From Candidatus Melainabacteria bacterium SSGW_16 (GTDB taxonomy: Bacteria > Cyanobacteriota > Vampirovibrionia > 2-02-FULL-35-15), in assembly GCA_004769085.1 (NCBI GenBank), contig DUDS01000042.1:1-64000 (forward strand): a stretch of DNA of 64,000 nucleotides. The letters run 5' to 3'. The number at the start of each line of letters is the position of its first letter. Within the stretch, counting starts at the first letter, position 1. Below the pieces are notes generated by a model. The model made no database searches. It saw only the letters and a list, made by a program, of their open reading frames with translations, and was not told where the DNA came from. This document shows positions 20,388 to 26,339 of this stretch, piece by piece. Position numbers and translations under genes: made by a program.

Positions 20388-20428
20388 CAACAAAATTGTT
20401 ACAAGAGTCTGTAAACAAATCCCGAATG

Positions 20429-20525
20429 AGCCAAATTAGCCTATTTATCCATCTGGCTGAGCGACGAAGGGTCCGTCAGTTCTTGGATAGAGGAGCGAAA
20501 GCCAGATGTTGGTAAATGGGCTCAC
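20429..20525. repeat. Interspersed palindromic repeat, family A, copy 2
   Basis: Inverted relative to the copy at 1813-1905; the 45-bp core 20455-20499 is identical. The terminal inverted repeats are clearer here: TGAGCC...TCTGGCT at the left end, and AGCCAGATG followed by TTGGTAAATGGGCTCA at the right. It lies in the asd-dapA intergenic region and contains no ORF of note. Confidence 0.8.
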
Positions 20526-23718: not shown

Positions 23719-24654
23719 TTAAGCAATTAATCCTTCCAAATACTCATCAAAAGTAAACTCTGCTATATCATCTATTTGTTCACCAGTACCAATAAACTTA
23801 ACAGGAAGAGAAAGTTTTGACATTATGTTTAATACCACCCCGCCCTTACTTGAACTGTCAAGCTTAGCAAGTACAATGCCTGAAAGCCCAATTGCTTTCT
23901 GAAAAAGTTCTGCCTGTGTAATTGCATTTTGTCCTATTGATGCATCAATCACAATAAGGTTTTCTTTTTTACTGGTTGCTGCATTCTTATCAATAATGGT
24001 ATTTATTTTCTTTAATTCTTCCATTAAATTTACCTGTGAGTGAAGCCTTCCTGCAGTATCAACAATAAGCAAGTCATATTTTTCATTTTTAGCCTTTTCA
24101 ATTGCACCATATACAACAGCATCAGGTTTTTTTATACCTTCAGGAGAATAAATATCAACCTGTGCTTTCTCTGACCAGATTAATAACTGATTTTCTGCTG
24201 CTGCACGAAAAGTATCTGCCGCTGCAATTAAAACCTTGTGTCCATCATCTTTAAATTTTTTTGCTAATTTCCCTATAGAAGTAGTTTTTCCTGAACCATT
24301 AACTCCTACAACAAGAAAAATATTTAACTGTTCAGGTATTAAACTAATTTTATTAAGTAATTTATTTACAGATTGCCCTAGTAGTGTTCTTACTATTTCT
24401 TTGATTTTTATATTAAGTTCAGCTTTTTCAATATTTTCTGATTTAATCTCATTTTTCAATTCTGAAACAATTTTATTTGACAGATCAAAGCCAATATCCG
24501 ATTTAATCAGCTTCTCAAGGATGGATTCATAATAATCTTCATTTAAATCAATATGAATTTTCTCAATGGCAACCTGATCAGTATCTAGGACCGATCTTGT
24601 CTTAAAAAGAGCTTCTTTTATTTTAAGCAGATTGTCAGTAAGCCAGTTTTTCAT
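23719..24654 (-). CDS. ftsY: Signal recognition particle receptor FtsY
   Basis: A 311-residue SRP GTPase that docks ribosome-nascent chain-SRP complexes to the membrane. The N domain (residues ~1-100) is followed by the G domain: G1 VVGVNGSGKTTSIGKLA (P-loop 117-125), AADTFRAAAENQL (G2), DTAGRLHSQVNLMEEL (G3), LAKLDSSSKGG (G4) and FIGTGEQIDDIAEF (closing motif). The acidic A domain is almost absent, as in many non-enteric bacteria. Confidence 0.95.
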   Translation of the reverse strand: MKNWLTDNLLKIKEALFKTRSVLDTDQVAIEKIHIDLNEDYYESILEKLIKSDIGFDLSNKIVSELKNEIKSENIEKAELNIKIKEIVRTLLGQSVNKLLNKISLIPEQLNIFLVVGVNGSGKTTSIGKLAKKFKDDGHKVLIAAADTFRAAAENQLLIWSEKAQVDIYSPEGIKKPDAVVYGAIEKAKNEKYDLLIVDTAGRLHSQVNLMEELKKINTIIDKNAATSKKENLIVIDASIGQNAITQAELFQKAIGLSGIVLAKLDSSSKGGVVLNIMSKLSLPVKFIGTGEQIDDIAEFTFDEYLEGLIA

Positions 24655-24691: not shown

Positions 24692-24697
24692 TATAAT
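24692..24697 (+). promoter_or_regulatory. -10 element at the original DUF4127 start
   Basis: Perfect TATAAT 6 nt before the ATG at 24704, which is now a duplicated gene start separated from the gene body by repeat B. It looks like the ancestral leaderless promoter of the DUF4127 gene. Confidence 0.5.
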
Positions 24698-24703
24698 TTT
24701 ATT

Positions 24704-24735
24704 ATGCAAAACAATAAAGAGATTGCGTTTCTACC
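24704..24735 (+). repeat. Direct repeat (left): duplicated 5' end of the DUF4127 gene
   Basis: These 32 bp match 24879-24910 at 29 positions, the first 23 being identical, and encode the same start MQNNKEIA. Reading on from this ATG gives 62 unrelated codons through the repeat element, so this copy is a decapitated gene start rather than a gene. Confidence 0.8.
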
Positions 24736-24876
24736 TACCGCCTGCTTGCTCATAATTCGCTTCGCAGGCTTTGCAAAATACATCTATTTGGTACCTCTTA
24801 CAACCTTTTACAGATTTTACCGAATAAATCGGGTAAAATCCTTCCTTAGTAATTCGTTTAGTTGGGATTCTTTAAC
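24731..24876. repeat. Interspersed structured repeat, family B, copy 1
   Basis: Shares ordered blocks with 55274-55429 and with the reverse complement of 33113-33270: TACCGCC, CTTCG, GGCTTTGCA, TTACA, CAGATTTTACCG and AAAATC. It contains a perfect hairpin GATTTTACC/GGTAAAATC (24813-24840). It sits exactly between two 32-bp direct repeats, as expected for an inserted element. Its TACCGCC end faces ftsY. Confidence 0.75.
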
Positions 24877-24878
24877 AT

Positions 24879-24910
24879 ATGCAAAACAATAAAGAGATTG
24901 CATTATTACC
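24879..24910 (+). repeat. Direct repeat (right): start of the intact DUF4127 gene
   Basis: Right-hand partner of 24704-24735. It contains the ATG and first ten codons of the intact gene. Such a long duplication is more than most transposases make. Confidence 0.8.
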
Positions 24911-26339
24911 AATCGACAATCGTCCAGTTTCATATCTTTTACCAAAGCAGATAGCAGATTTTGCAGGCATAAATCTTAATCTGCCAGACAGGAAAAAGCT
25001 TGGTGATTTACAAAATGGTTCTGATTTGTCTTATATTGACGAATGGGTAAATGGTTTAACTAGTAACTCATGTCTTATTCTGTCACTTGACAACTGGATT
25101 TACGGGGGGCTCGTTCAGAGCAGAAAACATTCATCTTCCTTTGAAACCCTTAAAAAAAGAGTATCTGACTTAATAAAGATAAATAAAATCACAAAATATG
25201 GTTTTAGCTCCATTATGAGAATCCCTGATTATAACAATACTGACGAAGAAAAAGATTACTGGAAGAAGTATGGGGAGAAGATTCACAAATGGTCAAAGTT
25301 AATGCACATGGTAGGAAGAGGAATAAAAGAAGAATATAAAACTCACGATGAACTTATTGAAGACTGGTACCAGAGCACAAAGGGAATTCCTGTTGAAATA
25401 CTTACAAACTATAAAAGTCACAGAGATACAAATTTTAGTATAAATATGCTCTGGCAGGATTCACTACACGAGAAAAGTTTTAATTATCTTATATTTTCAT
25501 CAGATGATTCGTCTAAATATGGACTAAACGTTATCGAATCGGAGTATTTAAGAAATGAAATAAAAAAACATCGTTTTGAATCAATAGCAAAAGTTATTTC
25601 AGGCACAGATGAAATTCCTCTTGTACTTCTTACAAAAGCACAGCTTGATATTACAAAACTGAAACCCTCAATCTCAGTTAATTTCACAAGCATTGATGGT
25701 GCAAATCAAATCGCAAGATATGAATCGAATACTATAAGATCTTCAGTACTAAATCAGCTTGAAGTCTTAAATATAGAAATAACCGATCCTGAAAAAAGTG
25801 ATATTTCACTTATTGTCCATCTTTCAGATTCAACACAAGGCGATCATATATTTAATTTACAGCCAGAAAACACAGAAAAAAGTGTTAACAATATTATTAA
25901 TATTTTAAAGAAATCAGAGAAATCATTTATTATTGCCGATCTTGCATATGCAAATGGTGCAGATCCAAAACTGATTAATTCTCTAATCAATTCAGAAATA
26001 AACTGGGAAAACTGTTATGGTTTTTCAGCATGGAATACCTGTTCAAATACAGTTGGCTCAGCTCTTGCAATAGGAATAAACAGATGGATTGCAGAAAAAA
26101 ATAACGTGTTCAATAAAACAGCTTTTAAAAAATGCTTACTAACGAGGTTTTTGGATGACTTCGCTTATCAGGCTGAAATCAGAAGCTTAAACAAGGGGGA
26201 GAAAGAAATTAATGATATGATGAAAAAACATGTACAGAAATTTTCAACATTGCTTAGGTTGGATAATATAAGTACAAGATGTAGGCTTCCATGGAACAGA
26301 TCATTTGAAATTGAAATTGAGTTTGTAAATGTCATATAA
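24879..26339 (+). CDS. DUF4127-family protein
   Basis: A 486-residue protein with clear DUF4127 features: ALLPIDNRPVSYLLPKQIADFAG at the N-terminus (the family's P-x-D-x-R-P motif), LPDRKKLGDL, LILSLDNWIYGGLVQSRKH, FSSIMRIPDYNN, IFSSDDSSKYGLN and ADLAYANGADPKLI. No signal peptide is visible. The biochemical role of the family is unknown. The 5' region has been rebuilt by repeat B, which put 175 bp between the ancestral promoter/start and the present ATG, but the ORF is intact. The 3' end overlaps argS by 11 bp. Confidence 0.85.
   Translation: MQNNKEIALLPIDNRPVSYLLPKQIADFAGINLNLPDRKKLGDLQNGSDLSYIDEWVNGLTSNSCLILSLDNWIYGGLVQSRKHSSSFETLKKRVSDLIKINKITKYGFSSIMRIPDYNNTDEEKDYWKKYGEKIHKWSKLMHMVGRGIKEEYKTHDELIEDWYQSTKGIPVEILTNYKSHRDTNFSINMLWQDSLHEKSFNYLIFSSDDSSKYGLNVIESEYLRNEIKKHRFESIAKVISGTDEIPLVLLTKAQLDITKLKPSISVNFTSIDGANQIARYESNTIRSSVLNQLEVLNIEITDPEKSDISLIVHLSDSTQGDHIFNLQPENTEKSVNNIINILKKSEKSFIIADLAYANGADPKLINSLINSEINWENCYGFSAWNTCSNTVGSALAIGINRWIAEKNNVFNKTAFKKCLLTRFLDDFAYQAEIRSLNKGEKEINDMMKKHVQKFSTLLRLDNISTRCRLPWNRSFEIEIEFVNVI

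Follow-up and report, generated by a model that had tools for sequence, protein, structure and literature searches.

A MITE-like insertion through the first codons of a DUF4127 gene and the probable recopying of the gene start over its right end

We analysed a 64,000-nt stretch of DNA (the window) from Candidatus Melainabacteria bacterium SSGW_16, which belongs to contig 5 of a metagenome-derived draft genome of 2.25 Mb in 46 contigs. The locus of interest lies between a divergent ftsY-like gene and a DUF4127 gene, and is occupied by copy 1 of a dispersed repeat, repeat B (Table 1). The DUF4127 product matches PF13552 over profile positions 1-489 of 489 (E 8.9e-113), its orthologs among members of the taxonomic family share 54-63% identity, and synteny with ftsY is retained in several relatives. 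At its downstream end, the DUF4127 stop and the argS start overlap by 11 nt at window positions 26329-26339 (ATGTCATATAA), an arrangement that suggests the two genes may be translationally coupled in an operon.

Table 1. Positions of the features at the DUF4127 locus, numbered from the first letter of the window.
Feature	Position	Strand	Basis or remark
ftsY-like gene (SRP54 GTPase), divergent	23719..24654	-	PF00448; marker of the orthologous locus
-10 element of DUF4127, TATAAT	24692..24697	+	exact; 6 nt upstream of the left ATG
Original gene start, T + ATGCAAAACAATAAA, codons 1-5	24703..24718	+	putative source of the copied 16 bp; ortholog-like promoter context
62-codon ORF running from the old ATG across the element	24704..24892	+	overlaps the new start region by 14 nt
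Left copy of the 8-bp target duplication, GAGATTGC	24719..24726	+	rule from 46 other family copies
Repeat B copy 1, MITE-like	24727..24893	+	167 bp framed by the 8-bp duplication; genome search, anchored alignment
Left terminus of copy 1, GTTTCTACCTACCGCC	24727..24742	+	matches the family left end
Internal near-palindrome, GATTTTACCGAATAAATCGGGTAAAATC	24813..24840	+	self-match; hairpin in predicted folds
Secondary gene-start copy	24878..24893	+	occupies the slot that in the family contains the right terminal repeat, approximately TTAGCTAGGCARTAAC
DUF4127 gene, 486 aa	24879..26339	+	present start is the putatively restored ATG; PF13552
Right copy of the 8-bp target duplication, GAGATTGC	24894..24901	+	family 8-bp rule

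The DUF4127 gene start is present twice. A preliminary description of the locus had reported that positions 24704-24735 and 24879-24910 are identical at 29 of 32 positions, that codons for MQNNKEIA open both copies, and that TATAAT precedes the left ATG by 6 nt but is missing ahead of the right one; each of these observations was borne out. Unbroken identity between the copies extends over 24 bp, TATGCAAAACAATAAAGAGATTGC (24703-24726 and 24878-24901), and the chance of an exact repeat of this length arising within 400 bp is negligible. Repeat B had also been placed exactly between the two 32-bp repeats. This proved incorrect: alignment with other copies showed that the element begins inside the left repeat, the sequence from 24727 on being its terminus. 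The apparent 32 bp is a composite of three parts. The first is GAGATTGC, the normal 8-bp target duplication of the repeat B family. The second is the 16-bp left flank TATGCAAAACAATAAA (24703-24718), which recurs at 24878-24893 with 16/16 identity. The third consists of nine positions at which the left end of the element, GTTTCTACC (24727-24735), stands opposite host sequence, ATTATTACC (24902-24910); the two match at 6/9, hence the apparent length of 32.

Judged from the sequences of its copies, repeat B is a MITE-like, non-autonomous family with an ordinary 8-bp target duplication. Searches of its own genome returned at least 40 diverged copies per query, and 47 copies could be anchored end to end, with lengths mainly of 161-167 bp. 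A search of other genomes found repeat B in 10/10 from the taxonomic family and in 0/29 from outside it. The family ends are imperfect terminal inverted repeats (TIRs), GTTWYTRCCTA... and ...TAGGYARTAAC (GTTACTGCCTA-like); left ends of other members read GTTTCTGCCTACCGCC, GTTATTACCTACCGCC and similar, and the right-end motif has 27 matches in the own genome versus 1 for a reversed control. Flanks in the own genome were compared within the stretches surrounding the copies. Flanking 8-mers at the predicted ends agreed at a mean of 5.22/8 positions; a shift of 1-3 nt lowered this to 2.5-2.8, and random pairs gave 2.65. A match of 7-8/8 was found for 21 of the 46 other copies versus about 0.4% of random pairs. 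Long direct repeats had been envisaged at other family B sites; duplications are present there, but they are of 8 bp, and none longer was found at the other anchored copies. Stretches from related genomes contained 14 end pairs, 113-166 bp apart, whose 8-bp duplications matched at 6/8 or better (7-8/8 in 13 cases); the 6/8 threshold excluded a few further pairs, such as in L145 and L147. Repeat B thus shows the MITE features of inverted repeats, a constant 8-bp duplication, short length, lack of coding sequence and many copies; no reading frame is conserved across the 47 copies.

We note several further repeats seen in the course of this comparison. Elements of 113-166 bp with GTTACTGCCTA ends and 8-bp duplications occur in L150, L152, L153, L155, L156, L157, L158, L161 and L162, and suggest that several MITE subfamilies of varied length may be served by one transposase. 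Three genomes (G003, G004 and G008; e.g., L133, L135, L142 and L143) have abundant matches to repeat B positions about 85-164 only, as if the right half were a separate repeat there. At L124:430-530, a truncated right half of B directly abuts an ATG (GGCAGTAACATGAACG), which is a possible start codon. Another dispersed repeat in the window forms a 100-nt inverted pair at 1840-1939 and 20400-20499, 81% complementary and 18.5 kb apart.

Copy 1 follows the 8-bp rule, with GAGATTGC on both sides (8/8), and other near-full copies are mostly 161-166 bp. Copy 1 retains only its left terminal repeat. Alignment of the stretch immediately ahead of the 16-bp tract with the other copies places the changeover to gene-start sequence 10-16 nt short of the family right end in 38/40 of them, with a median of 14 nt; the tract therefore replaces the TIR in register. 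Since copy 1 is about 76% identical to the consensus, its original right end has to be deduced from the family. With the right terminal repeat gone, copy 1 is probably now immobile. The copied 16-mer agrees with family right ends at a mean of 8.2/16 positions, a value reached by 0.35% of random window 16-mers in what was a post hoc test. In the other copies, the left flank agrees with the copy's own right end at a mean of 4.3/16 and a maximum of 8/16; random sequence gives 4.2, and we rejected a target preference for TIR-like flanks. The likeness of the 16-mer to right ends may have been a lucky homology that enabled exchange, or else it may reflect a mosaic origin of codons 2-5 from gene and terminal-repeat sequence.

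The state of the locus before insertion can be judged from relatives belonging to other genera of the same taxonomic family. All ten that we tabulated have one DUF4127 start and no insert in the 150 bp upstream. TATAAT or TAAAAT stands 6-9 nt before the ATG in nine of the ten, and at 15 nt in the tenth. This promoter-adjacent start, common to most orthologs, is probably leaderless. Because the left copy alone has the promoter context of the orthologs, we take the left position to be ancestral and the right one to be secondary. The earlier claim that the surviving start has been cut off from the TATAAT-adjacent one stands.

We consider it likely that a normal 8-bp MITE insertion was followed by short copying of the gene start over the right terminal repeat. 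Four direct observations bear on this: the family 8-bp rule, the missing right TIR, its in-register replacement by 16 bp, and the single starts in relatives. We infer from them two steps rather than one, with insertion preceding copying; selection may have had a role, and expression may have been affected. In the first step, repeat B would have entered codons 6-8 of the DUF4127 gene and duplicated GAGATTGC. The promoter-adjacent ATG would then have been cut from the coding region and put out of frame, leaving the conserved LLPIDNRPVSY region without a start. In the second, 16 bp (the base before the ATG and the first 15 coding bases) would have been copied from the left to the right junction, anchored by the two 8-bp copies and the partial resemblance around them, through template switching during replication or short-tract gene conversion. 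Such copying would have rejoined an in-frame start, MQNNKEIA, to the gene at the cost of destroying the right terminal repeat. The homology available for exchange amounts to 8 exact bases, or roughly 25/34 overall by hand count. RecA recombination normally prefers longer homology than this, and hence we favour template switching.

Set against this sequence of events, the remaining claims of the preliminary description fare differently. That the insertion duplicated the first codons is right insofar as repeat B lies in these codons and a second start was made, but the second start is not part of a 32-bp target duplication. The proposal of a target duplication of about 32 bp by an unusual transposase has to be abandoned, since family duplications are of 8 bp and the additional 16 bp stands in place of the right TIR of copy 1; the alternative of a recombination-based origin comes close to the best explanation, provided that recombination is understood to have come second, following normal transposition. 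The event is real and local, and is built from known parts, namely a MITE family not previously characterised and a secondary short copying. The copy 1 locus is no evidence for an unusual transposase.

We weighed three other explanations. An aberrant one-ended insertion, with a normal left end and a right end that was resected and joined by host repair, would account for the loss of the end and the 24-bp duplication in a single event, and the junction does lie within a short shared T/A sequence. It does not, however, predict that the TIR is replaced in register by a tract of nearly equal length, base for base, and we regard it as unlikely. It is a stronger rival than one-step transposition with a 24-bp target duplication and an element end at 24877, which we think quite improbable. 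Although 24727-24877 is immediately bounded by two perfectly identical 24-bp sequences, and some IS1202-family DDE members do make duplications of 16-28 bp (PMC10132070), the duplications at well-anchored copies of repeat B are of 8 bp, never longer. The element would moreover be without its last ~14 nt, the entire right TIR, and only by coincidence would the lost length agree to within 2-3 nt with the added length of the duplication. An assembly or binning artefact might be suspected of a 46-contig draft in a window that contains repeats, but is very improbable given a span of just 199 bp, which an ordinary read pair or a long read would cover, an intact gene syntenic with ftsY and argS, and an 8-bp duplication that agrees with the family rule. 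A 32-bp target duplication is ruled out by that rule together with the missing TIR, and an IS1202-like long-duplication transposon does not fit the ends and duplication size of repeat B.

We also looked for an autonomous partner of repeat B and for other functions that it might carry. No larger element with repeat B ends was found in 20 stretches, nor around matches to PF12762, PF01610 and PF01609, and PF00872 was absent from the 12 genomes searched. TIR-like matches beside an IS1595-type transposase are wrongly oriented and appear fortuitous. The own genome (G000) yielded no transposase of the IS256, IS1595, ISL3 or DDE_Tnp_1 type, despite its dozens of MITE copies; the mobilising enzyme would therefore have been lost, be unassembled or be of another type. 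A structured RNA was set aside, with one Rfam match, far under the gathering score, and modest fold z-scores (about -1.4 to -2.2 for the whole element). A consensus scan of the element detected no promoter-like or terminator-like site. A conserved B-encoded peptide was likewise rejected, the frame being open in only 8/47 copies.

The present DUF4127 ATG lies 175 bp downstream of the old ATG beside the promoter, and the old start now opens a 62-codon ORF whose product has no Pfam match. Its frame is open through the element body in the same 8 of 47 copies, so that its openness is likely due to chance. The overlap of this ORF with the new start region, 14 nt, resembles the native 11-nt overlap at the DUF4127-argS junction. 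Translation of DUF4127 could possibly be coupled to the upstream ORF, and the gene may be expressed via a long 5' leader, via coupled translation from the ORF, or both. A broader proposal would hold that MITE target duplications anchor short-range copying able to rebuild a disrupted gene start across the terminal repeat, which in this case rescued a leaderless gene, immobilised the element and made translation leadered or coupled through the 62-codon ORF; we offer it as speculation and hold it with low confidence.

These results define a MITE family with an 8-bp target duplication, present in 11/11 genomes examined of one Melainabacteria-relative family. They also offer a specific instance in which an element inserted through a leaderless start and the gene was apparently rescued without excision. 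An apparent long target duplication can come from a standard 8-bp one and a local copying event, and the length of a duplication as a clue to the type of transposase is therefore a trap. Some insertion sequences of the IS1202 group have target duplications of 16-28 bp, and duplications of >15 bp are a criterion of the group, whereas those of repeat B are 8 bp; the outer ends of the group are TGT, whereas those of repeat B are GTTACTGCC-like (PMC10132070). Like the prokaryotic MITEs that have been reviewed (PMC10969869), repeat B is short, lacks a transposase gene, and has terminal inverted repeats, a duplication of fixed size and many copies. It differs from them in that no autonomous partner or transposase with repeat B ends was found, and in that the right terminal repeat of copy 1 has been overwritten by host sequence. 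In leaderless genes, a -10 box lies about 10 bp ahead of the start codon (PMC3160421), much as TATAAT stands 6-9 nt before the ATG in most DUF4127 orthologs and at the left copy; unlike in those genes, the working start in the own genome has moved 175 bp from the promoter. The copying step, as read from sequence alone, resembles the short-range template switching of the MMBIR model of microhomology-mediated copying (PMC2621351), in that a short tract would have been copied from nearby with a microhomology anchor. In contrast to that model, the anchor would be the transposon's own target duplication, and the product a restored start codon.
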